Shown: positions 18,121 to 35,654, numbered from the stretch's first letter. The stretch: DNA of 64,000 nt from a virus (IMGVR_UViG_3300046674_000314:1-64000); one strand, 5' to 3'. Notes: a model not told the origin generated them from the sequence alone. Numbers and translations are program-made.

Positions 18121-18149
18121 ATTATAGCAGACCAAGTGCGGCGCGCACT
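18121..18149 (-). promoter_or_regulatory. CGTGC-type promoter (site 1)
   Basis: Minus strand GTGC (18145-18148), 18 bp, TATAAT (18121-18126), then AGAATCATTG. The GTGC box here is part of AGTGC...GCACT dyad. Confidence 0.65.
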
Positions 18150-18150
18150 A

Positions 18151-18411
18151 TCAGAATGGTATGCCAGCGCTAAAGTCTGTGCATCCAATCGTGATAACCA
18201 GAATGGGTGGGCGCATGTTATACTTCTCGCAAATTTCAAACCCTTCCCGGTTATTCCAGTGCTCGCAATTGTAGCAGCACTCCCATGTGAAAGTGTCAAC
18301 CAGCGCTTTCTGCGATTTGCGCATTTGTTCAGAGCGCATTCTCTCCCGTTCTTCGAGAGTGGTACCAGCTTTGTAGACCAGCGGGGCGGTCGGGGGCAAT
18401 GGATTAGTCAT
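18151..18411 (-). CDS. Small Cys-rich protein, possible zinc finger
   Basis: 86 residues. TWECCYNCEHWNNREGFEIC and a later IGCTDFS give a CCxxC...C...C pattern of small zinc-binding phage proteins. The N-terminal part is helical and charged (GTTLEERERMRSEQMRKSQK). It follows the helicase gene by 2 bp. Function unknown; may help the helicase or exonuclease nearby. Confidence 0.7.
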   Translation of the reverse strand: MTNPLPPTAPLVYKAGTTLEERERMRSEQMRKSQKALVDTFTWECCYNCEHWNNREGFEICEKYNMRPPILVITIGCTDFSAGIPF

Positions 18412-18413
18412 AG

Positions 18414-20078
18414 TCAGAATATATGTGAGTGGATTTCAGGCAAGGGCTTGTTCACGATTACCGCAATAGCCCGCGGTTGTTTCAGGTTGTTAATGATCCC
18501 ATACGCGACTTCGGTACTCTCTGGCGGAACCGCTCCATCGGCGCGAGCTTTCCACCATTGCTTCGCCAACCGGCCCGGATAGCCGCCATGCTCCAAGCAA
18601 ACCCATTCCCGAAACGTTTTCGAACCAGAGTGATAGGTCACGCAAATGGAGTCAGGCTTTCCGGTCTTATGCCACATTTGATACGCAACGCGATCCACCG
18701 GGAATTCCTTCACTTCAGGCAATTCCAGCACCGGCGCTTCTCGCACTAGCTTCTGAGTGCTCGACGTCTCGTCGATTTTGAGGTATCGCGGGAATTCGAA
18801 TCCGCAGTTCCAGCAGCTTCGGGCAGACGCGTGGTTATAACAGCCACACGAGTCACATATACGCACCGGAGCGTCGCCTTCACGTTTTCGTTCCTTCGGT
18901 TCAGGTACGCGCGGGTCGTTAATAGGCCCAAGGCGTGTAACGTTTTTAGCAAAATCGGCAACCATACAATTCCGCTTGTGACTTGCCGCAATTGCATTGA
19001 GTCGGCCATCTCTTGTGGATAGATCAAAACCCGGCTCGTAGTGAGGTCTGGTACCGCGACCGAGCATTTGGACCCAAAGACCGGGACTGAGCGTGTGTCG
19101 CAGCATTCCAATGAAATCAATGTCTGTCTTATCAAAGCCGGTCGTGAGAATTCCATTGTTCACCATCCATTCGAATTCGTTCTCTTTGTAGGCTTCGATG
19201 TTGGCGTCGCGCTCAGCCGAAGTCATGCCTACAGACGCAACCCATGTTGCCGATTGCCCGTAATACTTCAGAATGTCCACAAGGTGCTTGCAATGCTCTA
19301 GACCGCTGGCAAATACCAGCTTTGATCGGCGGTCCTTGCCGAGTTCCAACATTTCGATGACGGCTGCTTCATTCTTCTTTTGATTGTCGACCTCTGCCAT
19401 AAGACTTTTCGCTTCGTACTCGCCACCCTGAATTTTGACGTTCGACAGATCATACTCGACCTTCGTCGGACGCGGGATCGGCGGCACAAGGTACCCCTCA
19501 TGGAAGAACCAATTGAAGGCGTCGAGACCAGTACAATCGACCGCGACGTCACTAAAGATAGCACCATCACCATTTGTCAGCTTCCCTTGTTTCATCCGAT
19601 AGCCGGTGGCCGTCAGCCCGATCACCTTACAGTTCGGATTGGCTTTCTTCAGCCCGTTGAAAAACTTCTGGTACATCGTCTCGTCGCTCGGGCTGATTTC
19701 ATGCGCTTCGTCGACAATGACAAAGTCAATGAATCCGAACAACTCGGGAATCTTATAGACCGATCCGATTGACCCGAAGGTGATAGGATAATGGTGTTGC
19801 TTCTTTCCAAGCCCATCGCAAAAGATACCAACCGGCGCATCGCTCCAAGCCATTTTCAGCTTGTCGTAGTTTTGCTTGACCAATTCCTTGGTCTTGGTCA
19901 ACATCATGATGCGGGTCTGCGGATACCAGCCCAGCGCTTTAACGCAGATGCCCGCAACAATGATAGACTTCCCGGTGCCAGTGGGGTACAGGAGCAGCGG
20001 GTTGCCCTTATTCGTTTGGAAATAGTCGAACGTGGCTTGGATGCCGAAATCCTGATAGTCGCGCGGCTTCAACAGCAT
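18414..20078 (-). CDS. SF2 DEAH-type helicase with zinc motif
   Basis: 554 residues. Motor motifs are complete: PTGTGKS (32-38) binds ATP, DEAH (123-126), TATGYR (156-161), ILTTGFD (310-316) and QMLGRGTR (337-344). It belongs to the UvsW/RadD-like superfamily 2 branch. A four-Cys zinc knuckle CDSCGC...CWNCGF (408-426) is like that of RadD-type enzymes, followed by about 120 residues of unknown fold. Such helicases remodel branched DNA in phage recombination-dependent replication. It is in one leftward operon with an exonuclease and Sak4-like ATPase, which supports that job. Confidence 0.93.
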   Translation of the reverse strand: MLLKPRDYQDFGIQATFDYFQTNKGNPLLLYPTGTGKSIIVAGICVKALGWYPQTRIMMLTKTKELVKQNYDKLKMAWSDAPVGIFCDGLGKKQHHYPITFGSIGSVYKIPELFGFIDFVIVDEAHEISPSDETMYQKFFNGLKKANPNCKVIGLTATGYRMKQGKLTNGDGAIFSDVAVDCTGLDAFNWFFHEGYLVPPIPRPTKVEYDLSNVKIQGGEYEAKSLMAEVDNQKKNEAAVIEMLELGKDRRSKLVFASGLEHCKHLVDILKYYGQSATWVASVGMTSAERDANIEAYKENEFEWMVNNGILTTGFDKTDIDFIGMLRHTLSPGLWVQMLGRGTRPHYEPGFDLSTRDGRLNAIAASHKRNCMVADFAKNVTRLGPINDPRVPEPKERKREGDAPVRICDSCGCYNHASARSCWNCGFEFPRYLKIDETSSTQKLVREAPVLELPEVKEFPVDRVAYQMWHKTGKPDSICVTYHSGSKTFREWVCLEHGGYPGRLAKQWWKARADGAVPPESTEVAYGIINNLKQPRAIAVIVNKPLPEIHSHIF

Positions 20079-20080
20079 TT

Positions 20081-20296
20081 TTAGTTATCCTTTTCACCTT
20101 GCAAGATTTCGCGTTCGACTTGCTTATCACGCTTCAGGAGCGGCGCCCATGCAAGAAAGTATTCCCCGACCCGACCGCGCCAATTACCGGTCACGCACAT
20201 TCCGCCGATGGTCAGCAATTGCAGCTTGGTATCCGGCGTATACGGTGGCTTGGTATAGCACCATTGGGGCTTATCTGTGGCTACGTATTCAGGCAT
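20081..20296 (-). CDS. Small protein before helicase
   Basis: 71 residues: MPEYVATDKPQWCYTKPPYT, then a beta-rich middle (KLQLLTIGGMCVTGNWRGRV) and a charged helical end. Phages often carry such small proteins beside helicase genes. It starts right after the stop of a 19-residue frame and ends 2 bp before the helicase ATG. No family recognised. Confidence 0.65.
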   Translation of the reverse strand: MPEYVATDKPQWCYTKPPYTPDTKLQLLTIGGMCVTGNWRGRVGEYFLAWAPLLKRDKQVEREILQGEKDN

Positions 20297-20356
20297 TTAC
20301 TTCTCCCAATGCTCGCGCGAAATGCGGTCTTGGAGTCGTTGGATTTCCAGAGCCAT
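20297..20356 (-). CDS. Possible 19-residue peptide
   Basis: MALEIQRLQDRISREHWEK, one amphipathic helix. GTGAGG five bases before the ATG is a good ribosome site that overlaps the stop of the exonuclease gene, and its TAA abuts the next ATG. This fits the compact packing of the operon but is a minimal frame. Confidence 0.4.
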   Translation of the reverse strand: MALEIQRLQDRISREHWEK

Positions 20357-20363
20357 TTGAACC

Positions 20364-21299
20364 TCACAATGATGGGTGGTGCTGCCAATCGGGGCACCCT
20401 GATAGCTGCCGCGTTTTATCTAGCATAGCATTATGCGTGCTGCACCACCAGGTTCCATCTGTCTGCGGACTGGCGGCTGCGCAGGTTCGACAATTCATAT
20501 CCGGCGCGTCGCCAAAGTGACATACCCGGCGCTCGTCGCAGTACTTGCACTTCCAGAACGATTCATTCTGACTCAGCTTGGGTGGCGCCTCGACCGCAAA
20601 AATGATCTTGTGGGCGCGCTCTCGAAAGAACAGCGCGCAATCCGGATCATACTCGACAATCTCGAAATAGAGTTCGTCGTTATCCTTGCAGCATGCAGCA
20701 TACAGCCCATGCGTCAGCTTGTAATACTCCATGTACTGCTGCATCTGCACATAATGTTCTAGCTTGGCTTTCTTGACGCCTTCGGGCGGAATGACCACAA
20801 TGCCTTCGCGGTCCACTTCCCCAGCCAGCTTTTTAAATGACTTCAAGTTGTGCGTCTTGAATTCAGCGAGCACCGGTACATCGGGCATTTCCGGGATGCC
20901 GAGAATTACACCGTCAATGGCTGATCCGTAATGACCGCCGTAATACGAGACTCGGAATTGCCGACCTTCGGCTTCTTCTTGCCAGACCTGACAATCAATA
21001 GTCCGGAACATAGCCACAAAGCGTGCTTCCTCCAAGTGGCCCCGATTGAACAACCGCAGCATGCGGCCCGAGAATTTGGCGGGTTTAGTCCAGCGCCATT
21101 TGTACCAGAGTTCCCGCGCGCATTCCCGACCCGATAGGGAAATCCCCATGTGGCTACGGAATCGGTCATGCTGCGAATCATCATAGGCGTCACCCACGTC
21201 CATGATGTGCTCTTTCAAGAACCCTTTGAAGCGGCGCCCCTGATCGCGGTAGATCGCTGCGTCAATTGCTTCCTTGGTCTGAGTGGCGAGACGGATCAC
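20364..21299 (-). CDS. PD-(D/E)XK exonuclease, Cas4/RecB-like, with Cys cluster
   Basis: 311 residues from a GTG that overlaps the previous stop (GTGA). The nuclease motifs are GSAIDGVIL (Asp129), LAEFKTHN (Glu146 and Lys148) and YVQMQQYMEYY (QxxxY at 185-189). One Cys (GREC, 60) before and a set after (CKYC 251-254, Cys260, CRTC 270-273) resembles the iron-sulfur cluster of Cas4 and AddB-type enzymes. Predicted 5'-3' or 3'-5' single-strand resection for recombination; direction cannot be told. It is neighbour to a Sak4-like ATPase and SF2 helicase. Confidence 0.9.
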   Translation of the reverse strand: MIRLATQTKEAIDAAIYRDQGRRFKGFLKEHIMDVGDAYDDSQHDRFRSHMGISLSGRECARELWYKWRWTKPAKFSGRMLRLFNRGHLEEARFVAMFRTIDCQVWQEEAEGRQFRVSYYGGHYGSAIDGVILGIPEMPDVPVLAEFKTHNLKSFKKLAGEVDREGIVVIPPEGVKKAKLEHYVQMQQYMEYYKLTHGLYAACCKDNDELYFEIVEYDPDCALFFRERAHKIIFAVEAPPKLSQNESFWKCKYCDERRVCHFGDAPDMNCRTCAAASPQTDGTWWCSTHNAMLDKTRQLSGCPDWQHHPSL

Positions 21300-21550
21300 T
21301 TTCTCTCCCGAGCTTTCATCATTGTGTCAGCTTGGCGGTATGCGGCATGCGCAAGCCTATCCAGCGCCGAACCATTGACCAGTTCTTGACCGGTAATATG
21401 CTGCATCAGTTCGGGGTTTGCCATCATTCCGGTCAATGCAGCAATAGCGAAACGATCGCGCAGTTCTTGTTCTTCGAGTCGACGTTGTGCGAAAATGCGT
21501 TCTTGCTCTCGCGCTTGGTCTCTTACCTGCGCATGTGTATACTGATACAT
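21296..21550 (-). CDS. Small helical protein
   Basis: 84 residues: HAQVRDQAREQERIFAQRRL then EEQELRDRFAIAALTGMMAN; almost all helix. GGAGAGATT precedes the ATG. A terminator (21565-21586) separates it from the DUF669 gene upstream, so read-through or a separate start is needed. No family recognised. Confidence 0.65.
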   Translation of the reverse strand: MYQYTHAQVRDQAREQERIFAQRRLEEQELRDRFAIAALTGMMANPELMQHITGQELVNGSALDRLAHAAYRQADTMMKARERK

Positions 21551-21564
21551 AATCTCTCCAGTCG

Positions 21565-21586
21565 AAAAACCCCGCGCTTGGCGGGG
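21565..21586 (-). terminator. Rho-independent terminator after DUF669 gene
   Basis: On the minus strand CCCCGC-CAAGC-GCGGGG is followed by TTTTT (plus-strand A run 21565-21569). A strong terminator inside a leftward gene run suggests partial read-through control. Confidence 0.85.
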
Positions 21587-21612
21587 TCTGTATCACCGCG
21601 AGCGTGGAGCGA

Positions 21613-22308
21613 TTACTTCCCTTGTTGCCAGGGCGGAACTGCGCCATTGCCAGCCGGTGCGGCGGCTTGGGTTGCGGGCGCTGCCGCGGTTGCCGGATTG
21701 AATGCGGGAGCGGCTTGGGCTGCGGGGGCCGGTGCTGCGGCGGCTGCGGGCGCGGCTTGGGCTGCGGCTTGCATCGCAGGGGCTTGGGCGGCTGCGGCTG
21801 CATTCGGCTGGCTCACGGGCTGCGCTGCCGGGACGTGCGGCTGCGTAGCTGCGGCTGCGCCAGCGTCATACGGGTCATGACGCAGGATGTTGTTGCGTGC
21901 CGGACGAGCTTTGATTTCGGCGCCGGTGTTCGGATTGACCGATGCCGGGGTCTCGTCTTGGTAGTCGACTTCGATCATCATGACCTTGTTCGCCAACAGC
22001 GTCAAGTCGCCGCCTTGCAGCACGCCGACCGCATGGCCGATGGACGACAGCTGTTTCATGGCGATTTCAGCGGCTTGCGTCGAGCCGGTATGCCACAGAT
22101 TCAGGTTCTCGTAAACCTTGCGGCCTTTGAATTCACCTTCGGTGATGACGAATTCCAGCGCCAGATTGTGACCGGTGGCTGCATTGCCATTCGCTTTGAC
22201 CTGCATGTTGCGGATCGCTGCGGCATATGCGCCAGCCGGAACCGGTGCGCTACCGGCGACGAACGGGTCGATGTTGGTGACGTCGAAATTGAATTGGATC
22301 GGTTGCAT
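21613..22308 (-). CDS. DUF669 protein, probable ssDNA-binding partner
   Basis: 231 residues. The N-terminal 130 residues match DUF669: VPAGAYAAAIRNMQVKANGN, LALEFVITEGEFKGRKVYEN and LNLWHTGSTQAAEIAMKQLS. The C-terminal 100 residues are an Ala/Pro/Gln tail that ends PPWQQGK, like the flexible acidic or Pro-rich tail of SSB proteins. DUF669 genes lie next to Sak or Sak4 recombinases in many phages and probably act as their SSB; here the Sak4-like gene is 30 bp upstream. AAAGGACAAAC precedes the ATG. Confidence 0.85.
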   Translation of the reverse strand: MQPIQFNFDVTNIDPFVAGSAPVPAGAYAAAIRNMQVKANGNAATGHNLALEFVITEGEFKGRKVYENLNLWHTGSTQAAEIAMKQLSSIGHAVGVLQGGDLTLLANKVMMIEVDYQDETPASVNPNTGAEIKARPARNNILRHDPYDAGAAAATQPHVPAAQPVSQPNAAAAAQAPAMQAAAQAAPAAAAAPAPAAQAAPAFNPATAAAPATQAAAPAGNGAVPPWQQGK

Positions 22309-22338
22309 TTTGTTTGTCCTTTGATTAGGAGTTGGGGC

Positions 22339-23175
22339 TTACGATTGGTTCTGAATCTTGTCGATCAGGTATGACAAGTCTGGGCGCTCCCACGGTTCGA
22401 GCATTCCCGATCTGTCTTTAGCATCATACGATGCGTCGGGCTGGGTTTGCAAGAAACGATAGAGCTTATTTGTCGTTGCATCAGTCGCTACCCCGATGCG
22501 AAAAGTTTCGTCAAGCCAATAGGGCGACTGCGGCCCCAGTTGCTTTCCGGGAAAATCAGGGGCGCCGACAATCGCACCTGATACACCATCTTGCTTGCTG
22601 CCGAGCTTGGCCGTGATGCAAACATGCTTTCCCGCGAGATTGCGAAACTTGCGGAAATACTCCGCAATAATGTCCGCCACTTCGCCGTAGGCTTGCCGAC
22701 CATCGGCCTTTGCTGCCTTAGCTGCATTCAACATCACTTCGGCCGTCTCGCTCGACGAATCCCAAGCCACCGACTTGTAATATCCCTGATTGGCGGGCGC
22801 CGCAAGCCAATCATAGGCCGCTTTCAGCTGTAGACCATTGCGAACTACGATCACCGGGCTATTGGCTGCACCTTCAGCACGAGCACGCGCACCGGCGTCG
22901 TCCATTCCCATACCAAGGAAAATCTTAGTCAGATTCCCCACGCTGAGAGACAACAGGCCGCTCTCCGACGAGATAAAAACTATCGGCTGCGGCATCGTAG
23001 CGCACAGGACTGTCTTTCCAACCCCTGCCGGGCCGTACACTAGCGTCTTGACCCCGTTGCTGGTCGCTTGCTCTTTGACCGTTGACCAAACGATTGGCGT
23101 AGGCGTTGTGGAATTCGGGGCCGAAGTTGCTGGTGATTCCGGCGCCGCAACCCCCGGCGGTAATGGTGCGTTCAT
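22339..23175 (-). CDS. Sak4-like RecA-fold ATPase
   Basis: 278 residues. TLVYGPAGVGKTVLCATMPQ carries the Walker A (48-55); FISSESGLLSL (68-78) and SVAWDSSSE are the second and third strands of the AAA_24/Sak4 core. Sak4 proteins are single-RecA-domain annealing helpers that work with SSB in lytic and temperate phages. The first 30 residues are Pro/Thr-rich and disordered. AAGGAAAAGC precedes the ATG, yet its first 251 bp are also read in another frame by the upstream gene. DUF669 and exonuclease genes follow. Confidence 0.88.
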   Translation of the reverse strand: MNAPLPPGVAAPESPATSAPNSTTPTPIVWSTVKEQATSNGVKTLVYGPAGVGKTVLCATMPQPIVFISSESGLLSLSVGNLTKIFLGMGMDDAGARARAEGAANSPVIVVRNGLQLKAAYDWLAAPANQGYYKSVAWDSSSETAEVMLNAAKAAKADGRQAYGEVADIIAEYFRKFRNLAGKHVCITAKLGSKQDGVSGAIVGAPDFPGKQLGPQSPYWLDETFRIGVATDATTNKLYRFLQTQPDASYDAKDRSGMLEPWERPDLSYLIDKIQNQS

Positions 23176-23631: not shown

Positions 23632-23633
23632 GA

Positions 23634-24131: not shown

Positions 24132-24134
24132 GAT

Positions 24135-24458
24135 TTACCAAGCCTTCGGGATATGTTGGGGGTTTTGCGTCTGGTCAATCGCGCGATTGTATGCGCCGAA
24201 TGCTGAGTTGAGCTTTTCGGTGACGCGGAAAAAGTACATTTCCCAATGCGCGTCGTACCACATGGTTTCGACGGTCAGAACTGGCGACTGGTACAATGAG
24301 CGGATTTGCGCGTCGATTGCATCGCCCAGTTCTTTTTTCCAGCGGTAGTCGATGAAGTGCGCCGGATCGTGGCGGTTACGAATGCGGATTCGTTGGTAGG
24401 GAAACTTGCTGTTCGGCTTTGCAATCTCTGCCGAATAATACTTAACCAATGTGGTCAT
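24135..24458 (-). CDS. Unknown early protein, first of recombination operon
   Basis: 107 residues: MTTLVKYYSAEIAKPNSKFP, basic patch YQRIRIRNRHDPAHFIDYRW, then aromatic-rich TVETMWYDAHWEMYFFRVTE. AAAGGATGATTTCAA leads into the ATG, the same leader found at 28353. It is the first gene after the promoter at 24514-24541 and so probably is the most strongly expressed of the operon. Function unknown. Confidence 0.7.
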   Translation of the reverse strand: MTTLVKYYSAEIAKPNSKFPYQRIRIRNRHDPAHFIDYRWKKELGDAIDAQIRSLYQSPVLTVETMWYDAHWEMYFFRVTEKLNSAFGAYNRAIDQTQNPQHIPKAW

Positions 24459-24513
24459 TTGAAATCATCCTTTTAGTCGAGGAGTGGGGCGCGATGCCCC
24501 AACCCATGAATCT

Positions 24514-24541
24514 ATTATAGCAGACTTGCGATTAATTGCCC
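24514..24541 (-). promoter_or_regulatory. CGTGC-type promoter, variant (site 2)
   Basis: Minus strand TATAAT (24514-24519) is followed by AGATTCATGG, as in sites 4 and 5, but the upstream box is GGGC (24538-24541) in place of GTGC at the same 18-bp distance. It lies in the 3' end of the next upstream gene. Confidence 0.55.
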
Positions 24542-25047
24542 GCAATTCGTGTCGACTCGGGCTGCGAATCCGAACGACTGATACGATCGCTCGGTTTCTT
24601 GCTGCACGTCAGCCCGGCGTCAATCATGGCGTCGTAGACTTCACCGGAAATCTGACAACGCATGTTGTTGGCGGCTTGACGAAGCTTGGTCGCCTCGCTT
24701 GCATCGGGCGTGATGGTCGATTGGCGCGCGGTTTCCGCTGCCGCGACTTCAAGCACGCACGACTTCTGATCTTTAGACGACCCGAATGCAGCGGAGAAAC
24801 CCGCAACCGCCATGCCACCTTGGGTGGTCTGCCCGCAATTGAATTGCGAGAAAGACGAAGCATAGGCACCGAGAATCGGAGCGCTCACGTTGTGCACGGT
24901 CGCTTCCGTATGCTCGGGCGATTGGCTGAACTGAATCGTGCCTTGCGCCACCGATTGACTCTGGCTCGTCTGATTGGCGGTCGATGTTGCTTGTGCGAAT
25001 GCGCCGGTCGAAATGAGCAGTGCACCCAAAATAAGAACGCGTTTCAT
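24532..25047 (-). CDS. Secreted Ser/Gln-rich protein
   Basis: 171 residues from MKRVLILGALLISTGAFAQA, a signal peptide with cleavage near AFA/QA. The mature part is rich in Ser, Thr and Gln (TSTANQTSQSQSVAQG) with four Cys (FNCGQTT, KSCVLEV, MRCQISG, LTCSKKP), probably two disulfides. First of three exported proteins between 24.5 and 26.3 kb. Phages use such proteins to alter the envelope or exclude others; that is inference. The bacterial homologue is not known to me. Confidence 0.75.
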   Translation of the reverse strand: MKRVLILGALLISTGAFAQATSTANQTSQSQSVAQGTIQFSQSPEHTEATVHNVSAPILGAYASSFSQFNCGQTTQGGMAVAGFSAAFGSSKDQKSCVLEVAAAETARQSTITPDASEATKLRQAANNMRCQISGEVYDAMIDAGLTCSKKPSDRISRSDSQPESTRIAGN

Positions 25048-25072
25048 TTTTATCTCTCTGGTCTGGTTGGCT

Positions 25073-25102: not shown

Positions 25103-25531
25103 TTAATGCGCGTAGCTGTAGGCGCCGCCGATGTAGCTGTACGCCGTGGCCGAGTAATCGACGCCAGCGCCACCCTTTGCGGAACCATATGCGTCACCGC
25201 GGGTATAGCCATTCGACGTGCTGTTGGTCTGGCTGCTGCCGAAGCCCGTAGCTGCCGAGTAGCCGCCAGCACCAGCGATGCCACCGAAGCCGACCGGAAG
25301 GAATCCACCCGCCACGATCATGCTGGAACCCGACTGAGCGTAGCCCGAACCGACGCTGTTGCTTGCTTGATTGCTGTACCCATTACCGTTCGTGCCGCTG
25401 GTTGCTTGCGAGCCACCCGAGACCGAAACCGACGCAGCGAAACCGCCACCGATCCCGAACGAGTCAGCCGCTTGTGCGACATTGAAAGCGAATGCTGCGA
25501 AGGTACCGACGACGAGAATTGCCTTTTTCAT
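25103..25531 (-). CDS. Secreted Gly/Ser/Asn-rich protein
   Basis: 142 residues. Signal peptide MKKAILVVGTFAAFAFNVAQ with a cut at QA/AD. The mature chain is extremely rich in Gly, Ser, Ala, Asn and Tyr in short repeats such as GGSQATSGTNGNGYSNQASN, with no Cys. Composition recalls curli-type or glycine-rich surface proteins, which suggests that it may assemble outside the cell, but no curlin motif is proven. It is 55 bp upstream of another secreted protein gene and probably co-expressed. Confidence 0.75.
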   Translation of the reverse strand: MKKAILVVGTFAAFAFNVAQAADSFGIGGGFAASVSVSGGSQATSGTNGNGYSNQASNSVGSGYAQSGSSMIVAGGFLPVGFGGIAGAGGYSAATGFGSSQTNSTSNGYTRGDAYGSAKGGAGVDYSATAYSYIGGAYSYAH

Positions 25532-26318: not shown

Positions 26319-26347
26319 ATTATGCTGGTGCAGCGTTTAAACCGCAC
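26319..26347 (-). promoter_or_regulatory. CGTGC-type promoter (site 3)
   Basis: Minus strand GTGC (26344-26347), 19 bp, CATAAT (26319-26324) followed by AGACC. The GTGC starts GGTGC...GCACC, a dyad in the spacer. Confidence 0.55.
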
Positions 26348-26367: not shown

Positions 26368-26613
26368 CTACGCTTTGCGGGACCGGTGCATCGCCTTTTC
26401 AATCGCCCAATATGCTTCGTCACAGGCGTTGGCGATACCCTGCGTGCGAGGGGATTCGATCACGAGGGCAGTACTTTCCATGCTCAAAAACTTGCGCGGT
26501 TCCCAGTTTTGATTGTAGATCAGCATGTAGATACCGCGCGAGTCTGGCGTCGAGCGGTAGTTATCGTTGTAGCCGAGCACTTTATCCACATGTGCATTGT
26601 ACATTCCGCTCAT
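26368..26613 (-). CDS. Unknown small early protein
   Basis: 81 residues: MSGMYNAHVDKVLGYNDNYR then RGIYMLIYNQNWEPRKFLSM; mixed alpha/beta appearance with a C-terminal helix of basic residues (WAIEKAMHRSRKA). ATG overlaps the previous stop by ATGA and GAGG precedes it. No family recognised. Confidence 0.65.
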   Translation of the reverse strand: MSGMYNAHVDKVLGYNDNYRSTPDSRGIYMLIYNQNWEPRKFLSMESTALVIESPRTQGIANACDEAYWAIEKAMHRSRKA

Positions 26614-27305
26614 TTGATTTTCCTCGCTTCTTCGGTGACTTGGTTGCTCAGATTGATCTTGTTGCCAAAATCTTGACCCTTATTGAAAGCGTCATGGTCT
26701 ACGCTGCTGGCGCGGGCTTTGCGGTAGCGCAAGCCTTCCGGAAGCATCAATTCGTTAGCTGCTGCCTCGGTATCATAAAAGGATGCCAGAACCAGAGCGG
26801 TGCCGGGCGTCGCTGCCTCGCTTGCTGCCGCTTGGCTGGCTTTGATTTCCTTAACCCGAGCATGCAAGGCGTACATTGCGCCGACTGCAAAGCTACGGGT
26901 TCCCGGTGCCGTATTCTGGCCGTACATTTTGCGGCCTTCCTTCAGGATTGACTTAACGATCCAGTCAGCCATCACAGCCGCGGTCATCGCGTTGGATTCG
27001 CGTCCGATGAAATGGAATTTGTTTTGGCTAGTGCTGACCTTGCTGGACCAGACCTTGCAAAAGAACAGGTCGCCGATGATATTGTTGATCTGTCGCGCCC
27101 ACTGCCACGAGAACGATTGGTTCTCGAAGTCAATGCGCTTTTCTTGTTTGCTTTCGCCGTGTGCCTCGACTGCTGCCATGTCGAGGTTATGCTTTGCCAT
27201 CAAGTTATAGGCCATGCGCAAAGCGTTATCGCGCTCGCCTTCGCTTGCTGCGAGGTCGTTAGCGAGATTCAACATTTTTTGAATACGGCCGAAAATCTTT
27301 TCCAT
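26610..27305 (-). CDS. DUF2786 domain protein
   Basis: 231 residues. RIQKMLNLANDLAASEGERD NALR... gives the DUF2786 N-terminal helix pattern: K(I/M)xKLLxLAxxxxxxxExxxA, then LMAKHNLDMAAV. The remainder has the usual SWQWARQINNIIGDLFFCKV and a C-terminal region with DHDAFNKGQDFGNKINL. DUF2786 proteins are common in phages and prophages; a nucleic-acid role is suspected but unproved. It is the first gene from the promoter at 27388-27415. Confidence 0.82.
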   Translation of the reverse strand: MEKIFGRIQKMLNLANDLAASEGERDNALRMAYNLMAKHNLDMAAVEAHGESKQEKRIDFENQSFSWQWARQINNIIGDLFFCKVWSSKVSTSQNKFHFIGRESNAMTAAVMADWIVKSILKEGRKMYGQNTAPGTRSFAVGAMYALHARVKEIKASQAAASEAATPGTALVLASFYDTEAAANELMLPEGLRYRKARASSVDHDAFNKGQDFGNKINLSNQVTEEARKIK

Positions 27306-27387
27306 GATGTTTATCCTATTAGTCGGTTAATTGACCCCGAGATTTAGCCGCTTCGGGGCTGGGCGCGTTCTCTGCATCCATGAATCT

Positions 27388-27415
27388 ATTATAGCTGACT
27401 CAGTCTGGAACGCAC
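27388..27415 (-). promoter_or_regulatory. CGTGC-type promoter (site 4)
   Basis: Minus strand GTGC (27412-27415), 18 bp, TATAAT (27388-27393), then AGATTCATGG. A GC-rich segment that may fold follows in the leader, then AATAGGATAAAC before the start of the DUF2786 gene. Confidence 0.7.
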
Positions 27416-28353: not shown

Positions 28354-28405
28354 TTGATTTCATCCTTTAGGTCAGGGGCTAGCGCGTTTCGCTAACCATG
28401 AATCT

Positions 28406-28433
28406 ATTATAGAGAATTCTTGGTATATCGCAC
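28406..28433 (-). promoter_or_regulatory. CGTGC-type promoter (site 5)
   Basis: Minus strand GTGC (28430-28433), 18 bp, TATAAT (28406-28411), then AGATTCATGG and a hairpin GTTAGCG...CGCTAGC in the leader. GAGAATTCT occurs at 28412-28420 (spacer) and 28437-28445, candidate operator copies 25 bp apart. The remaining divergent gap to 28600 holds no gene. Confidence 0.7.
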
Positions 28434-28600: not shown

Positions 28601-28987
28601 ATGAGCGCAAAATTCTATGCGAGCAAATCGGCAGCGGTTCGTCACGCGGTTAACTATATCGGTGGCGATTGGGAAAAAGAGTATTTGGTACATGAGGTCG
28701 AACTACCGGATGGCGGAACGTACTTCGCTATCGTTTCTCGGAAACATGCGCTTGCGCCGATGCCAACCAGCAGAGGGTCAGCCGTATCTGAGCGGAAGAC
28801 AGCTGTTGCGCCGTCCTTTATCCCGCGTTCGCGCATCAAGGGCGCCACGCGTCGGGTTTGGGATATTGCGGATTTAATGCAAGGCAAGGCCCGTAGAGAG
28901 GTCTTAGAAGAGTGCCGTCGACAGGGGATCGCATCAGGCACCGCAGCAACGCAGTACCAACGCTGGAAACAAGCGACGAGGAAATGA
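28601..28987 (+). CDS. Protein with C-terminal VWxxAD module (copy C)
   Basis: 128 residues. The N-terminal part (YASKSAAVRHAVNYIGGDWE then a YFAIVSR strand) resembles the start of copy D at 33.9 kb. After a linker, the shared module occupies residues 80-128: GATRRVWDIADLM up to GIASGTAATQYQRWKQATRK. It is a rightward gene alone in a leftward region, with its own terminator, which is the layout of a regulator. Likely a small DNA-binding protein by its basic module; not proven. Confidence 0.75.
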   Translation: MSAKFYASKSAAVRHAVNYIGGDWEKEYLVHEVELPDGGTYFAIVSRKHALAPMPTSRGSAVSERKTAVAPSFIPRSRIKGATRRVWDIADLMQGKARREVLEECRRQGIASGTAATQYQRWKQATRK

Positions 28988-29010
28988 TCTAGAAACGGGG
29001 CGTAGGTTTG

Positions 29011-29045: not shown

Positions 29046-29050
29046 TCGTC

Positions 29051-29263: not shown

Positions 29264-29333
29264 TTCGTTTTGTATCCGGTTAGTCAAAGTGAGATTAGAT
29301 TTTAGTCGCCGGTCTCCCGGCGCGCAACGTGAT

Positions 29334-29721: not shown

Positions 29722-29772
29722 TTTCGTCCCCTGCGTCTAGCGGCTGGCGGGAATCGCCTAACCCATGCCTCT

Positions 29773-29800
29773 AGTATAGACCTTCCTCATAAGATTGCAC
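29773..29800 (-). promoter_or_regulatory. CGTGC-type promoter (site 6)
   Basis: Minus strand GTGC (29797-29800), 18 bp, TATACT (29773-29778), AGAGG, then CATGG. A GGCG...CGCC hairpin follows in the leader. The divergent gap to 29884 also has CAGAATTCTAAT near 29825, like the motif at 28437. Confidence 0.65.
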
Positions 29801-29883
29801 GATAATTCTATTATTTGCGAGTTTCAGAATTCTAATATAGAATGCAATCCTGTCGAAATTCTCTATGACCGAAAGGGGATGAA

Positions 29884-30096: not shown

Positions 30097-30100
30097 GCCC

Positions 30101-32392
30101 ATGTACCAAGCTACTCAATGGTGGGATAATATCCCCCATGCGATGCGAGACCATGCGCATTTCATGTGCGCGACCGATAAGAAAATACCATTCAATCCAT
30201 ATACTGGCTCGTTCGGCAAAGATGACCCTGCCAATTGGATGACCTATGGCGATGCTTGTTATTGGGCTGGCGATAAAGATTTGGTGATCGGCTTTGTACC
30301 GAGACCCGATGACCCATTCGTTATCATCGACCTCGACAATAAGCCCGAAAGCAACATCAGCGCTGAAGACGCCGCGCTGCGCGATCAGCTATTGGCGTGG
30401 GCCATTGAGAATACCTACGTCGAGAAGTCATCGAGTGGGAATGGCTACCATGTGGTCATCACCGGCGCATTGCCAGCGGATATTAACCGCGGTACAAAAC
30501 GAGGCGTCGAGGCATATGCTAATAAGGGCTTCGTTATCCTGACGGGCAACATTATCAGCAAGACGCGGGAAATTGCGCATTCGCCTAGTACTTGCGAATG
30601 GCTTTATGCGACCTATGCCGCAGGTACAGCCACTGATCGGTCAGAAGGGAATGACTTTTATTCTCTGAATCAGGAACAGATCAACAATCCCCCGCAATGG
30701 GAGCTTGACGAAGACCAAAAGTTTTTGGATTCAATCAAAGGCTGGAAAAATGAGAACAAGATTCGTTCCTGGTTCTATGCTGAAGATACCGATGCGACCG
30801 GGGTAGGCGGATCGGTTGGCGATTTACAATTGGTACAGCTGTTTGTTGAATTCACCCGAAAGCGCAAGTATCCGGATGAATCGGCAATGCGTATGTTTCT
30901 TCGCTCGCCGCGTGGTCGCAAGCTTGGGCGCAAAAACGGATCGTGGCCTAAATATTGCATGACCACATTGCTAGCTGCAAAGAATATGGTTGCTAGCGGC
31001 AAAGAAAAACAAACGGGCTTGGCTGAAGGCGTGAACAATATGTTGGCTGAATTTGAAGCCAAGCGCTTGCAGCATGCGGAACTGCATACCGCTAATACAT
31101 TGAATCGTGCAGCCGGTATCCCGATGCCGCAAGTGCCGAATATGCCCCCAGTGGTTTACAAGCACAAATTTGATTTCCTAAAGCCCAGCGACATTTTAAG
31201 CGAAAGCCCTTTGGAGTGGGCGCTCGAAAACGTTTTTCAAATGCGCTCGGTCAATGCTATTTACGGCTGGTCTGGCGTCGGCAAGTCGTTTGTAGCTATT
31301 GACTTAATGTTTGCATTTGCCGAAGGTCGGGAATGGTTCGGCCATGAAACGCAACAACTGAGCGTGACCTATCTTGCGCTTGAAGGTGGCGATGGTTTGC
31401 GTAACCGCTTGCATGCTTATATGCACGGTTCTAAAAAACATAGCTTGCCTGATAGCATCGACATTTATCGGGGCAAATTCAATTTGCGTTCTAAGGAAAT
31501 GATCGGTGAGTTTATTGACCAGCGCAAACAGGCTGAAGCTTTCGGCGGCGTAATCTTTATTGACACCTTTGCGAAAGCTATACCGGGCGCCGATGAAAAT
31601 AGCGCAAATGATATGGGAGACGCAGTTGTAGCTGCCGAATTGATGAAAGATCAGTTGGGTGCGTGCGTCATTATCGTTCACCACAGTACCAAGCCTGATA
31701 AGGTGACCGGAATTGCGGGCGGCTTGCGCGGATCGGGCGCTATTCAAGCCGGTATTGATGGCGTGATGCAGGTTGCCAAGCGTGAAGAGTGGGACGAGAA
31801 AAATGGAACGCTCATTAGCCGCACGCGCTTTATTGTTATGGACAAAGTGAAGGATGGCGAGGACGGTACCCATTATCCGTTTGATCTTCCGAAAGTCAAG
31901 ATCGGTGAGCGCACCCGAAAGAGCGGGGAAATTGTTGATGTATTCTCATGCCATGTGGTCAATTTGCGCGACCAAGTGAACAGCAGAATCGCGCCGGTTG
32001 CAAGCAATAATGTGCCGACCTATAGCGAAGCCGAACATGCAGGAACAGCAGCGACCCGAGTGCCGAAAGCACCGCGCAGTGGAGCCAAGTCACAAAGTGC
32101 AGCGAATGAGCAACACGCAAATAGCTATGAGTGGGCGCAATTGATACAGACCGCGTTGACCTTAGATGCGCAAAGAACCCACTTTGCAAATAAGGGAAAG
32201 TTTGGGGCGCCACCAGATAAAACCGCAACCCCTAGAAGCGCCCTTGTGAATCTCGTTTGGGAGATTGCGAACCCGCCAGAATTGACCCGAGAGTTGAAAA
32301 AGGCTTTGATGAATACGTTAGATTACCAATATAAAAGTGGTAAAATTGGGCGCGCTATGAACGATGGTACTCAATACTTTTGGCAAAGTTAG
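30101..32392 (+). CDS. Primase-polymerase and RepA-type helicase fusion
   Basis: 763 residues from MYQATQWWDNIPHAMRDHAH; GGAG lies 12 bp before the ATG. The N-terminal PrimPol-like part has FVIIDLDNK (73-81) with catalytic acidic residues, SSGNGYHVVI (111-120) and GVEAYANKGFVILTGNI. The C-terminal helicase is RepA/AAA_25-like: YGWSGVGKS Walker A (388-396), YLALEGGDGLRNRL, FIDTF Walker B (486-490) and the IIVHHSTK segment typical of this group. Replication proteins of plasmids and phages have this order and load at iterons; a cluster of such repeats follows directly. This is a second replication system next to the DUF1376 set at 4 kb. Confidence 0.92.
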   Translation: MYQATQWWDNIPHAMRDHAHFMCATDKKIPFNPYTGSFGKDDPANWMTYGDACYWAGDKDLVIGFVPRPDDPFVIIDLDNKPESNISAEDAALRDQLLAWAIENTYVEKSSSGNGYHVVITGALPADINRGTKRGVEAYANKGFVILTGNIISKTREIAHSPSTCEWLYATYAAGTATDRSEGNDFYSLNQEQINNPPQWELDEDQKFLDSIKGWKNENKIRSWFYAEDTDATGVGGSVGDLQLVQLFVEFTRKRKYPDESAMRMFLRSPRGRKLGRKNGSWPKYCMTTLLAAKNMVASGKEKQTGLAEGVNNMLAEFEAKRLQHAELHTANTLNRAAGIPMPQVPNMPPVVYKHKFDFLKPSDILSESPLEWALENVFQMRSVNAIYGWSGVGKSFVAIDLMFAFAEGREWFGHETQQLSVTYLALEGGDGLRNRLHAYMHGSKKHSLPDSIDIYRGKFNLRSKEMIGEFIDQRKQAEAFGGVIFIDTFAKAIPGADENSANDMGDAVVAAELMKDQLGACVIIVHHSTKPDKVTGIAGGLRGSGAIQAGIDGVMQVAKREEWDEKNGTLISRTRFIVMDKVKDGEDGTHYPFDLPKVKIGERTRKSGEIVDVFSCHVVNLRDQVNSRIAPVASNNVPTYSEAEHAGTAATRVPKAPRSGAKSQSAANEQHANSYEWAQLIQTALTLDAQRTHFANKGKFGAPPDKTATPRSALVNLVWEIANPPELTRELKKALMNTLDYQYKSGKIGRAMNDGTQYFWQS

Positions 32393-32394
32393 AT

Positions 32395-32536
32395 GGTCTG
32401 AATATAATGGTCTGAGTCTGAAAATTGTCTGAATCGTCAGACCGTTTTTCAGACAATTCAGACCAATTCAGACCATTTTCAGACATGCGGTCTGAATCCT
32501 TATGGGATAAGGGATGTAGCGAGTTTCAGACTGGTC
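32395..32536. repeat. TCTGAA/TTCAGA repeat cluster, probable replication origin
   Basis: TCTGAA at 32397, 32417, 32428 and 32491 (TCTGAG at 32411) and its reverse TTCAGA at 32448, 32457, 32467, 32478 and 32525 (TCAGA at 32437): eleven copies in about 140 bp. AATTGTCTGAA (32423-32433) and TTCAGACAATT (32448-32458) form an 11-bp inverted repeat. An A/T-rich stretch follows to 32640. Location right after the replicase gene is that of an iteron origin. Not coding. Confidence 0.8.
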
Positions 32537-32660
32537 TTAATCCTTATGCGCGCGTCGCATAGCATTTCACCCTTTCAGGGATGAAATATGCGGCGAAATG
32601 CGAAGGCAAATTTATTTTTCAGAATAGGTGAATTTTTCTAACTTTTTGGAGAAGTGAGAA

Positions 32661-32864
32661 ATGGGCTTTGATCGTAAGATTGCGCAGTTGACAGCAAGTG
32701 GTGCAAACCTTTATTGCGTCGATGATACGGGTGGTGGATGGTGGCTGGATGAAAGCGGTACATGGAAACCATTACCTAAACTTCCGTCTTTTATGGATAC
32801 CGCGAATGAAGCGTATGCAATTGAAACGGCGCGAATTATTCGGGCAAGGGGGCAAGGTGGTTGA
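32661..32864 (+). CDS. Small unknown protein after the origin
   Basis: 67 residues: MGFDRKIAQLTASGANLYCV then GGGWWLDESGTWKPLPKLPS. GGAGAAGTGAGAA leads to the ATG. A WW-like aromatic segment in the middle and a basic end. No family recognised. Located between origin and nuclease gene. Confidence 0.65.
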   Translation: MGFDRKIAQLTASGANLYCVDDTGGGWWLDESGTWKPLPKLPSFMDTANEAYAIETARIIRARGQGG

Positions 32865-32897
32865 AAGGTACAAACGTTTACTTGGAGGACTAGAAAA

Positions 32898-33344
32898 ATG
32901 GGTACAGGAGTAGAAAGGGGTGATCCTGCTGGACTAGCGGGTGCTAGTGAGCATAGCCAGCAGGTAGCGTTGATGGCCGCGGTGGCGCAGTATGTGGAGA
33001 GCGAGCGGGCGCTGCGGTGGCTCTATGCGGTGCCGAATGGCGGGAGCCGTGGTAGCGATCAACGGTCGGCCATGATTCAAGGTGGCATGCTGAAGGCGGA
33101 AGGCGCGAAAGCGGGCGTGGCTGATCTTTGCTTACCTGTGGCTAGGCATGGCTATCACGCATTTTACATTGAGATGAAAAAGCCCGGTGGCGGCGCGCAG
33201 AGCAAAGAGCAAAAAGCTTTCGAGGTACATTGCCAGCAGGAAGGCAACCTCTATGCCATTTTCCACTACTGGCACGAAGCCTTTCGCGCGCTCATGTGGT
33301 ACCTAGGCTTTGAGCATTCGAAAGCTTGGCCGCTGCCTTCGTGA
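32898..33344 (+). CDS. VRR-NUC nuclease
   Basis: 148 residues. LYAVPNGGSRGSDQRSAMIQ, KAEGAKAGVADLCLPVARHG and AFYIEMKKPGGGAQSKEQKA are the motifs of the VRR-NUC family, a PD-(D/E)XK fold used as a structure-specific nuclease on branched DNA; the Asp in VADL and the ExK in YIEMKK are the catalytic residues. Phages use it to resolve branched DNA before packaging. GGAGGACTAG precedes the ATG. Length is typical of the stand-alone phage form. Confidence 0.93.
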   Translation: MGTGVERGDPAGLAGASEHSQQVALMAAVAQYVESERALRWLYAVPNGGSRGSDQRSAMIQGGMLKAEGAKAGVADLCLPVARHGYHAFYIEMKKPGGGAQSKEQKAFEVHCQQEGNLYAIFHYWHEAFRALMWYLGFEHSKAWPLPS

Positions 33345-33360
33345 GAGCCGATTTCGGATT

Positions 33361-33403
33361 ATCGGGATCAGCAGAGCATATTCGCCCTATCCGATCCCGA
33401 TTT
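33361..33403. terminator. Inverted repeat between convergent genes
   Basis: ATCGGGATC (33361-33369) and GATCCCGAT (33393-33401) with 23 nt between them, flanked by a short T tract. It could end transcription from both sides, between the nuclease gene and copy D. Confidence 0.5.
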
Positions 33404-33421
33404 AGCCAGCCAGAATCGCAA

Positions 33422-33961
33422 TCACTTGGAATTAAAGCGCTTGCTGGCCTCCGCTGCCGCTGCCTCATTCGCCTTTGCCGAATCATTCGCCTTTTTCCAA
33501 GCCTGATACTGGGTACGGGCGGTGCCGCTAGCGATCCCGCGCGCCACGCATTCGTCCTGCACTTCTTTGCGGCTGGGCTTCGGCAAGCCCGCCGCGAGCG
33601 CTGCCGCGATCATTTCATCGGCAATCGCCCAGACTCGCTTAACCGGGCGTTCGACCGAGCTAAGGCGCACCCACAGCTTGCCATTGAGCGTTGATTCGCT
33701 CGCTTGCGCATTGGCGATGCGTTCGGCTTCTTCTTCGAGCGCGGCCGTATCCACTTCAAAATCGCTTGCCTTCGGGAAGGTCCATACATCGGTCTTGCTG
33801 GCTTCGGTCAGGCAAGCTTGCCATGCATTCGAGCGGTCAATCGGCTGGCGAATTTGCACCGTCCATGCGCCATCCACTTTTTCCACAAAGGCGCTTTCTT
33901 TCCATGCGGCGCCAAAGTTTTTGCGAGCGGCATTCATTGCGGCGATATTGGTGGCAAACAT
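33422..33961 (-). CDS. Protein with C-terminal VWxxAD module (copy D)
   Basis: 179 residues from MFATNIAAMNAARKNFGAAW; CAGGAGAGAGAAA precedes the ATG. The N-terminal segment is similar in pattern to copy C (helix with AA...A, G..W, then strands KVDGAWTVQIRQP). Residues 104-158 hold the shared module: PVKRVWAIADEM up to ASGTARTQYQAWKKAND, then an Ala/Glu/Lys tail as in copy A. Leftward gene among rightward ones, with its own CGTGC-type promoter. A DNA-binding role is inferred from the basic module. Confidence 0.75.
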   Translation of the reverse strand: MFATNIAAMNAARKNFGAAWKESAFVEKVDGAWTVQIRQPIDRSNAWQACLTEASKTDVWTFPKASDFEVDTAALEEEAERIANAQASESTLNGKLWVRLSSVERPVKRVWAIADEMIAAALAAGLPKPSRKEVQDECVARGIASGTARTQYQAWKKANDSAKANEAAAAEASKRFNSK

Positions 33962-34031
33962 TTTCTCTCTCCTGAAAGTCAAAAAAGTGGGATCAACCGC
34001 TCTAGTGGATCGAATACGAATCCATGTAGAG

Positions 34032-34060
34032 ATTATAGAAGTGTAATCTGTCTAGCGCAC
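34032..34060 (-). promoter_or_regulatory. CGTGC-type promoter (site 7)
   Basis: Minus strand GTGC (34057-34060), 19 bp, TATAAT (34032-34037), CTCTA, CATGG. It drives copy D. Confidence 0.65.
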
Positions 34061-34093
34061 GAATTAGTTTCATGCGCTATGCGGATTAGACTT

Positions 34094-34336
34094 TCAGAGT
34101 GAATCCATATCGCTATCGACTATGCGTCCAGCCTTCAGATAGAGCAGCCAATTGACGCCTTGACATTCGACCATCGCCATCTTCGTCGCATTCGGAATAT
34201 GCTCTTCTTCGTCGATGCCTGCAAATTCGATTTCGCAGCCGCAAGCCAGCAGTTCGAGGTAGAGTTGGCGGTGCTCGCCTTTGATGCAGAGCGTGGCCAA
34301 TTCTTTGATGCCTTTGCTGATGATTTGCTTTTTCAT
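34094..34336 (-). CDS. Unknown small early protein
   Basis: 80 residues: MKKQIISKGIKELATLCIKG then HRQLYLELLACGCEIEFAGI and ATKMAMVECQGVNWLLYLKA. Helical start and beta-rich remainder with four Cys. AATAGGATAGATCACC precedes the ATG. No family recognised. Confidence 0.7.
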   Translation of the reverse strand: MKKQIISKGIKELATLCIKGEHRQLYLELLACGCEIEFAGIDEEEHIPNATKMAMVECQGVNWLLYLKAGRIVDSDMDSL

Positions 34337-34392
34337 GGTGATCTATCCTATTCGTCTTTGGCTGCTGCGGGCTTGCTGCATCCATGAATAGA

Positions 34393-34420
34393 ATTATAGA
34401 TCATGGCGTTTAAAAGGCAC
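34393..34420 (-). promoter_or_regulatory. CGTGC-type promoter (site 8)
   Basis: Minus strand GTGC (34417-34420), 18 bp, TATAAT (34393-34398), TCTATT, CATGG, then a leader with GCAGC...GCTGC-type complementarity. Confidence 0.7.
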
Positions 34421-34429
34421 GAGAAAAAT

Positions 34430-34870
34430 AGAAAAATCTCGAAAATATATGCTATGCCCTTGCGGCGCGTTTATAGCCCCTTGGCGGGCTTGGTGGCCTA
34501 ATAGATAGCAGAGCATAGGCGAAGGCCCGCGAGCGGCATGTCACGAATCATGCCAGAACTACTCTTATATAAGACTGAAGATTACTCTTGTATAAGAGTA
34601 TGCTGGCAAAGAACATGCCAGCTTGCGCTTTTTAGCTCGAACATTATATCTATCGGGTCACGGGAAGCCCATAGGCGTTAGCTATTTACCATAATGGGCA
34701 TTATCGAAGAATTTGCGAAGGCAATGATTGCGATAGCTAAGAGGTACTGTTGCCCGATAGGCTGGCTATCAATGTTCGATAGAAAATATTGATTAGACGA
34801 TTTCGCGCGCTAATCTATAATTCTCTTTAAGCGATGCAGCCCGCAGCGCTCCGATCAACAGGATAAGATC
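34430..34870. other. Non-coding A/T-rich stretch with dyads and a terminator
   Basis: No gene seen. ACTCTTATATAAGA (34561-34574) and ACTCTTGTATAAGA (34584-34597) are near-identical palindromic sites 23 bp apart, and TACTCTTATA / TATAAGAGTA (34560, 34591) can also pair across. GCTGGCA (34602-34608) / TGCCAGC (34616-34622) followed by TTGCGCTTTTT is a rightward terminator. A TATAATTCTCTT promoter-like box lies near 34816 ahead of the next gene. Confidence 0.55.
34602..34633 (+). terminator. Rho-independent terminator in non-coding stretch
   Basis: 7-bp stem GCTGGCA/TGCCAGC, 7-nt loop, then TTGCGCTTTTT. With no rightward gene ahead of it for about 1.2 kb, it implies a non-coding transcript or control of read-through. 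Confidence 0.6.
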
Positions 34871-35083
34871 ATGAGATTCGTAGCCAAGCTGACGCACCGC
34901 AATTTCGCCAATGTTACCTATGGGTACGGCGAGAATCAGCGTGATGCCGTTCTGAACGCGTTGGATAAGCTTGGTTCGGTTTTCTTTTGCTCGTTTGATA
35001 CGATGGTATCGATCTACAGCGAGAGCGAGCGAGGGGAAGTGCAATCGGTCTGGCTCGGTGAATTGTGTCACTTCAAAGGCTGA
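34871..35083 (+). CDS. Unknown small protein
   Basis: 70 residues: MRFVAKLTHRNFANVTYGYG then RDAVLNALDKLGSVFFCSFD and SIYSESERGEVQSVWLGELC. An alpha/beta fold pattern. Its leader (CTATAATTCTCTT then GGATAAGATC before the ATG) is nearly the same as that of the next gene at 35195. No family recognised. Confidence 0.7.
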   Translation: MRFVAKLTHRNFANVTYGYGENQRDAVLNALDKLGSVFFCSFDTMVSIYSESERGEVQSVWLGELCHFKG

Positions 35084-35115
35084 TGCGTGGCGGGGTACTG
35101 TTTCCTCAAATTCTT

Positions 35116-35144
35116 CGTGCGCTTTCGGATAGGTAATCTATAAT
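35116..35144 (+). promoter_or_regulatory. CGTGC-type promoter (site 9), plus strand
   Basis: CGTGC (35116-35120), 18 bp, TATAAT (35139-35144), TCTCTT, CATGG. This plus-strand copy shows that the pattern is not a by-product of leftward coding. It drives the gene at 35195. Confidence 0.72.
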
Positions 35145-35194
35145 TCTCTTCATGGGCTGGCGCTGGGCTGGCCCGAGACGAAGGGGATAAGATC

Positions 35195-35359
35195 ATGAAT
35201 TCATTCGACCTGCTGATGGCTGAACACGAAGCGCGCCGCTTGGCTAACAATATCCAAAGCTTCCGCTTCCGCCAATCGCTAGGCTACGGTGATCATAGCC
35301 AAGCCATCAAAGAGCATGAGGAACAGCTGGCTAGCCTGAAGCGGCTGATGGCGAGCTAG
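35195..35359 (+). CDS. Small helical protein
   Basis: 54 residues: MNSFDLLMAEHEARRLANNI then QSFRFRQSLGYGDHSQAIKE and a final helix of Leu, Glu and Lys. AAGGGGATAAGATC precedes the ATG. No family recognised. Confidence 0.65.
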   Translation: MNSFDLLMAEHEARRLANNIQSFRFRQSLGYGDHSQAIKEHEEQLASLKRLMAS

Positions 35360-35654
35360 CGCCTAGCACGAGCCGTGCCAGCTTGGGCGGCTCTGGCTGG
35401 CTGCGCGGATCAGGCAGAGCGACCACCCCTACCACCAAAGAATGCTTGTGCCGGTACCCTTTATCGTAGCCGGGTACCTCCCACAATTTTCACCAAATCC
35501 TCCACATCACCACCCCTCGTCTTACTCCCCGCACTAATCCCCATTTCCGTACCAAAATTTTATAAAAATTAAAAGGTACAGATTGTCAACAGTGTACAAC
35601 TGAAAGTACATGCTATGCTAGGCGCATTCTATTTCAATGCGTGAGCTAGCGACA
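35360..35654. other. Non-coding gap before virion genes
   Basis: No gene seen. GGTACCC (35453-35459) and GGGTACC (35472-35478) form an inverted repeat. A promoter with GTGT (35592-35595), 18 bp, TATGCT (35614-35619) has the layout of the CGTGC type with one change in each box and may drive the late operon. Confidence 0.5.
35592..35619 (+). promoter_or_regulatory. Possible late promoter, CGTGC-type variant (site 10)
   Basis: GTGT (35592-35595), 18-bp gap, TATGCT (35614-35619), 36 bp before the ATG at 35655. GTAC...GTAC flank the spacer. It is the only promoter-like site directly ahead of the virion genes. Confidence 0.45.

Follow-up and report, generated by a model that had tools for sequence, protein, structure and literature searches.

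A 64,000-nucleotide stretch of viral DNA (IMGVR_UViG_3300046674_000314:1-64000; hereafter the window, part of a 73,180-base virus record) carries in its early and accessory region a repeated promoter-like element, in which a GTGC box occupies the place of the usual -35 hexamer and is followed by TATAAT and by CATGG where a transcript should begin. This raises the question of which polymerase, aided or not by a phage protein, would read such an element. The explanation we favour, and hold to be likely though far from certain, is that these are sigma70-type early promoters with a KTGC (K = G or T) variant of the -35 element, fused to a 5′-terminal hairpin leader and shuffled as cassettes in the manner of the promoter early stem-loops (PeSLs) of T4-type phages. 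The module is genuine, conserved in a group of phages and probably served by an ordinary polymerase; what is unusual in it is the -35 variant, the fixed start and the coupled hairpin.

The exact pattern GTGC-N{17,20}-TATAAT was found six times (18121, 27388, 28406, 34032 and 34393 on the minus strand, 35117 on the plus strand) against 0.18 expected, and none of 100 shuffles attained six. One-base variants of the class occur at 29773- (TATACT) and 24514- (GGGC box). A weight matrix built from three blocks (box, -10 and start) gave these eight class sites scores of 28-37, whereas first-order shuffles of the 73,180-base record yielded 0.155 hits above 20 per genome, with a maximum of 26.7 in 200 shuffles. 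Leave-one-out scores were ~24-36 for seven class sites (34032 was not among the values read). The -10 hexamer is TATAAT in 7/8 sites and TATACT in the remaining one, as in a sigma70-type promoter, and the box is GTGC in 7/8. CATGG lies 5-6 nt past the -10 box in all but 18121, which has CATTG. Every class site is intergenic, with a gene on the same strand 56-98 nt downstream (distances were computed for exact TATAAT sites and 29773 was judged by inspection), and none falls within the left arm (1-17,000). Moreover, the DNA upstream of the class promoters is AT-rich (62.5%, compared with 50.6% in the intergenic DNA of the region).

The initial annotation had proposed both the class and a weight-matrix scan against shuffled controls, and much of its description stands: a repeated, non-random class whose start is conserved and whose leaders carry hairpins, seven sites with CATGG after the -10 box, intergenic placement with none in the left arm, and eight of the sites listed. 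The other two listed sites do not belong. The one at 26319 on the minus strand falls to background when left out of the matrix, and its GTGC sits inside an inverted repeat (GGTGC...GCACC); that at 35592 lacks GTGC, TATAAT and CATGG altogether. A site at 34816 on the plus strand had been overlooked. It has TCTATAATTCTCTT in common with 35117 and a hairpin at the start, is without GTGC and CATGG, and its -35 would be TTAGAC-17 or TAGACG-16. The assertion that other promoters of the window carry TTGACA fared poorly. No TTGACA-TATAAT pair was found in the window, the closest being TTGACA-16-TATGAT (2244-), TTGACA-17-TACAAT (6267+) and TTGGCA-17-TATAAT (32403+), and TTGACA/TATAAT-like sites within 17-36.5 kb were as frequent as in shuffles (16 against 15.1). 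The GTGC class is the sole well-formed promoter class of the early region.

The nature of the box was approached through relatives. When viral contigs were scanned blindly at the DNA level for the promoter pattern, five came up, among them G004, whose portal is ~54-58% and primase ~43% identical to those of the window. Further relatives came from portal-profile searches, and G007-G012 were read from end to end. Upstream of the phrog_421 gene (26610-27305) the window has GTGCGT-16-TATAATagattCATGG; the promoters of its orthologues read TTGCGT-17-TATAATagattCATGG in G010, TTGCGA-16-TATAATagagtCATGG in G009, TTGCAT-17-TATTATatagcCATGC in G007 and TTGACT-16-TATAAT, with no CATGG, in G004. Because orthologous promoters form a series from TTGACT to GTGCGT in the same register, at 16-17 bp, the box is, by this comparison, homologous to the -35 hexamer, from which it appears to have drifted to (G/T)TGC. 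One more intergenic contig site, obtained by searching with CTATAATAGANTCATGG alone and leaving the box unused, reads TTGACG-16-TATAATAGAGTCATGGATGCAG. G004 and G007 each have two box types, G004 having two GTGC sites. Among 31 pooled sites, T is found at the second position of the hexamer in 29, G at the third in 30 and C at the fourth in 26, counts that are upper bounds since some sites were box-selected and the register was chosen to favour such hexamers; the spacing is 16-17 in 29. Sites picked by -10 and CATGG alone show the same tendency in the box. A change from TTGA to TTGC through avoidance of modified GA motifs was considered and set aside, GA being present elsewhere in the promoters.

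Conservation is strongest at the predicted start, in TATAAT-N6-ATGG, and in most cases a hairpin begins at about +3. The A of ATG follows the -10 hexamer by 7-8 nt in 31/31 sites, the usual position of a sigma70 start. Most leaders have a stem beginning at about the GG of AUGG and closed by a loop of 4-6 nt, with a single hairpin of ~21-26 nt in the window leaders that have one. Fourteen podovirus leaders fold far more stably than shuffles (Stouffer z -7.1; P 4e-4 versus other ATGG sites), and the same was seen in the out-of-sample leaders of three cultured phages found later, BcepGomr, ART and VPv64 (Stouffer z -6.7, P 8e-7). Stem sequences vary from one leader to another, so that it is the pairing which is kept and not the sequence. 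The loops of the window also vary (GCUGG, AUUCC, AAACG, AUCGC). AUGG is kept even where there is no hairpin. Leaders gave no match above chance in Rfam, so that a known RNA family was set aside; a leaderless upstream ORF (open reading frame) with a conserved peptide was likewise rejected, as the AUGG frames, read by eye, encode unrelated short peptides. As a separate observation, the loops AUUGG and AUAGG recur across different stems in leaders of G009 (L074), VPv64 (L127) and BcepGomr (L122); this may mean recognition of the loop, and neither was seen in the window phage.

The module is present in BcepGomr of Burkholderia, ART of Achromobacter and VPv64 of Variovorax; VPv64, grown on the non-pathogenic Variovorax paradoxus DSM 645, has three sites of this kind. 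TATAAT-N-TCATGG was not found in G008, G011, G012 and PaP3, or in the parts searched of Pa-X and NP1, and the class is thus not universal. In a broad scan with TTGCN{18,19}TATAATNNNNTCATGG, 45/69 distinct sites among the matches listed lay outside long ORFs, and the TTGC sites among those matches were not generally enriched in hairpins (z -0.45 against -0.34), which suggests that TTGC promoters with a CATGG start extend past this group and that the hairpin is not general to them. No DNA relatives were found among phage records, nor was a relative found in a host search of genome contigs with the phrog_421 protein. At two sites of BcepGomr (EF523948, 44195- and 49796+; L122) and one of ART (MH746817, 76335-; L124) the word ATGAACAT stands in the spacer a few bases before TATAAT. 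It is absent from the window phage and is possibly an extra element.

Two promoter-and-gene cassettes vary between close relatives. Two contigs, L014 and L015, match the window at ~99% identity along most of their length, and both are without 34013-34363, which comprises promoter 34032 and the ORF at 34094-34336. In L015 a further stretch, 35101-35367, is missing together with promoter 35117 and its ORF. One edge of a cassette falls where the 34393 leader hairpin ends. A repeated promoter and stem-loop between small ORFs, and the presence or absence of cassettes among close relatives, are both found here, as in PeSLs.

Some observations weigh against a plain sigma70 promoter with a hairpin leader. 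GTGC is more uniform in the window than mere decay of a -35 would leave it, and GTGCGN matches TTGACA at only 2/6 positions, though its register and homology fit a -35 at 16-17 bp. With such a match and no extended -10 (TGn), activity with unaided sigma70 could be weak. Moreover, not every leader has a hairpin: 27388, 18121 and the PSASB_03 orthologue of one VPv64 site lack it, and that of 34032 is weak; it is hence common but not obligatory. The initial annotation, recalling T4 middle promoters, saw in the box an activator site that takes the place of the -35. A phage activator on GTGC would then take over the -35 contact by MotA-like sigma appropriation and steer the host polymerase to a middle class. 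The GTGC uniformity extends to the two sites in G004, a near-perfect -10 with a poor, non-consensus -35 and a TGC core is the arrangement of T4 middle promoters (PMC2988021), and the phage encodes small uncharacterised proteins, including four paralogues that may share a DNA-binding domain at the C-terminus, two directly under class promoters. However, in orthologous promoters the register of the box is shared by TTGACT, TTGCAT, TTGCGA and TTGCGT, so that it swaps with TTGAC in relatives, and one genome can mix box types. The geometry also differs: the T4 MotA box, (a/t)3TGCTTtA, is centred at -30 and lies 12 ± 1 bp from the -10, placing TGC at 16 ± 1 bp (PMC2988021), whereas here TGC is 18-19 bp away, a displacement of 2-3 bp. 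Since the GTGC class is the only well-formed one of the early region, there would be nothing obvious to express an activator first. Sigma70 region 4 (PF04545) was not found in G000, G004, G009 or G010, with controls positive in 14/14, and a phage sigma factor was rejected on this basis. Searches for MotA (PF09114) and for phage RNA polymerase (PF00940) gave no match, and in neither was a control positive; there was no MotA or AsiA match among the proteins scanned, no search having been aimed at AsiA. Footprinting across relatives and geometry together rule out a MotA-like box as the leading reading, and we consider it unlikely.

Given the unusual uniformity of GTGC in this genome, and how poor a -35 it makes, a phage factor of another kind also has to be weighed. 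Such a factor, unlike MotA, would recognise the (G/T)TGC box, the CATGG start or both, and would define a new phage-controlled promoter class spread across Burkholderia, Achromobacter and Variovorax phages, with box variants co-evolving with it and the 5′ AUGG hairpin acting as a coupled translation and stability signal. We judge this improbable. It is more doubtful still that the promoters are ordinary and that CATGG, GTGC or both are operators, contacted by a phage repressor or regulator that silences the early promoters together. CATGG is indeed retained where the hairpin is absent (27388, contig G019, PSASB_03 10738), and it holds the palindrome CATG at the start point, a usual operator position, but its flanks do not show the conservation of a long dimer site and no repressor was identified. 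The hairpin stems have no common sequence, which excluded them as a DNA operator palindrome; variation in sequence with the pairing kept speaks for RNA structure. Least probable, and in our view very unlikely, is antitermination, in which the leader hairpin would be a put- or boxB-like RNA modifying the polymerase for long early transcription. The hairpin does stand immediately past the start, often with a 5-nt loop, much as HK022 putL lies just downstream of its own promoter (PMC9378689), and the AUUGG/AUAGG loops recur in G009, VPv64 and BcepGomr. However, put RNAs have two stem-loops over ~70 nt, compared with one short hairpin here; the loops of the window are not conserved, Rfam offers nothing above chance, and several window promoters drive just one or two genes.

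We return to the sigma70 promoter with its hairpin leader. Host sigma70-type RNA polymerase would read these early and accessory podovirus promoters, with a near-perfect -10 and AT-rich DNA upstream compensating for the weak KTGC -35 at 16-17 bp. Like bacterial sigma70 promoters they have TATAAT, the -35 register and spacing, and a start 7-8 nt downstream; unlike them, they carry GTGC or TTGC for TTGACA, and their start and leader are constrained. The RNA would start at the A of CATGG, and its 5′-AUGG end would usually fold immediately into a hairpin whose loop is 4-6 nt long. By precedent, the hairpin most likely guards the 5′ end against RppH/RNase E decay, 5′ stem-loops being known to stabilise mRNA (Emory 1992, Bouvet and Belasco 1992, as cited in PMC3997798), and the 5′-terminal AUG may help ribosome loading, as 5′-terminal AUGs bind ribosomes in E. 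coli 5′-uAUG mRNAs (PMC4965119). The leaders resemble those of ompA and papA in a stem within ~2-3 nt of the 5′ end, and 5′-uAUG mRNAs in a terminal AUG upstream of a gene led by a Shine-Dalgarno sequence; here, in contrast, both appear combined and repeated across many predicted phage transcripts. Promoter, start and hairpin would form a reusable module over many small-gene cassettes, gained and lost between close relatives. PeSLs (Arbiol 2010 and Comeau 2014), as described in PMC4503421, likewise place copies of a conserved early promoter and stem-loop between small ORFs, in a plastic region, and are linked to genes being gained and lost; going by the title of Comeau 2014, however, the PeSL stem-loop is a terminator, whereas the window hairpin would lie within the transcript at its 5′ end. 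The window hairpins are inside the leader and have no T run, which was seen at the G007 site only. To our knowledge, neither a KTGC box nor a CATGG start is known from PeSLs. No description of the promoter-plus-leader module was found in the literature searched, in which few subscription journals were covered.

Table 1. Positions of predicted promoters, leader hairpins and variable cassettes in the window.
Feature	Coordinates	Strand	Remarks
Class promoter GTGCGC-16-TATAAT-tctctt-CATGG	35117..35155	+	Drives ORF 35195-35359; score 37, leave-one-out 36
5′ hairpin of 35117 leader	35154..35174	+	8 bp, 5-nt loop; -15.5 kcal/mol, z -2.3
Class promoter GTGCCT-16-TATAAT-tctatt-CATGG	34382..34420	-	Drives ORF 34094-34336; pattern and matrix
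5′ hairpin of 34393 leader, interrupted stem	34359..34384	-	End is one boundary of cassette missing in L014/L015
Class promoter GTGCGC-17-TATAAT-ctcta-CATGG	34022..34060	-	Drives ORF 33422-33961; pattern and matrix
5′ hairpin of 34032 leader, weak	34006..34024	-	z -0.4
Class promoter GTGCAA-16-TATACT-agagg-CATGG	29763..29800	-	Matrix
5′ hairpin of 29773 leader	29742..29763	-	z -1.4
Class promoter GTGCGA-16-TATAAT-agatt-CATGG	28396..28433	-	Pattern and matrix
5′ hairpin of 28406 leader	28377..28397	-	8 bp, 5-nt loop, begins at GG of AUGG; z -2.9
Class promoter GTGCGT-16-TATAAT-agatt-CATGG	27378..27415	-	Upstream of phrog_421 gene 26610-27305; orthologous promoters in relatives
Class promoter, GGGC variant, GGGCAA-16-TATAAT-agatt-CATGG	24504..24541	-	Drives ORF 24135-24458
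5′ hairpin of 24514 leader	24481..24505	-	z -2.5
Class promoter GTGCGC-16-TATAAT-agaat-CATTG	18111..18148	-	Upstream of gene 17315-18091
Related site TAGACG-16-TATAAT-tctctt, hairpin 34830-34850 at start	34794..34850	+	Drives ORF 34871-35083
26319 site, unsupported	26319..26347	-	CATAAT, no CATGG; leave-one-out 8.5
Promoter-plus-gene cassette missing in near-identical contigs L014 and L015	34013..34363		Contig alignment
Promoter-plus-gene cassette missing in L015	35101..35367		Contig alignment (three aligned pieces)

The portal of the window phage resembles those of LUZ24/PaP3-type podoviruses. Its early arm encodes a primase/helicase (30101-32392), Cas4 exonuclease, Sak4, a helicase, QueC/D/E, FolE, a TGT-like protein, DNA polymerase and a clamp, and is syntenic with that of Burkholderia phage BcepGomr and Achromobacter phage vB_Ade_ART, suggesting that the host is probably a member of the Burkholderiales. 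The structural genes of BcepGomr differ from those of the window phage, and the genome is a mosaic, structural genes with a LUZ24-type portal (37809-64000) being joined to a BcepGomr-syntenic early part (12264-33344). Genes for QueE, QueC, QueD-like, FolE and TGT-like proteins stand in a row on the minus strand (15330-16091, 14557-15231, 14063-14557, 13409-14062 and 12264-13181), and the phage DNA is therefore probably 7-deazaguanine-modified. The four paralogues (17315-18091, 16319-17047 and 33422-33961 on the minus strand, 28601-28987 on the plus strand) have in common, at the C-terminus, the phrog_7864 motif VW.IAD...GTA.TQY..W, which may be a small DNA-binding domain, and 2/4 lie directly under class promoters. 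Two adjacent small proteins (24532-25047 and 25103-25531, minus strand) have signal-peptide-like N-termini, one being glycine/serine-rich, and are possible envelope or secreted factors. Just downstream of the primase gene, at 32405-32500, the words GTCTGAA/TTCAGAC occur in several inverted and direct copies near the TTGGCA-17-TATAAT site at 32403, a possible regulatory or replication element.

More generally, a drifted -35 element can resemble an activator box until relatives are compared. We found no transcript study of these 7-deazaguanine-pathway phages, and a testable promoter-plus-leader module in the cultured BcepGomr, ART and VPv64 would open their early transcription to study in a laboratory host that is not a pathogen. 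It would also provide a second, non-T4 example of promoter/stem-loop cassettes tied to gene gain and loss.

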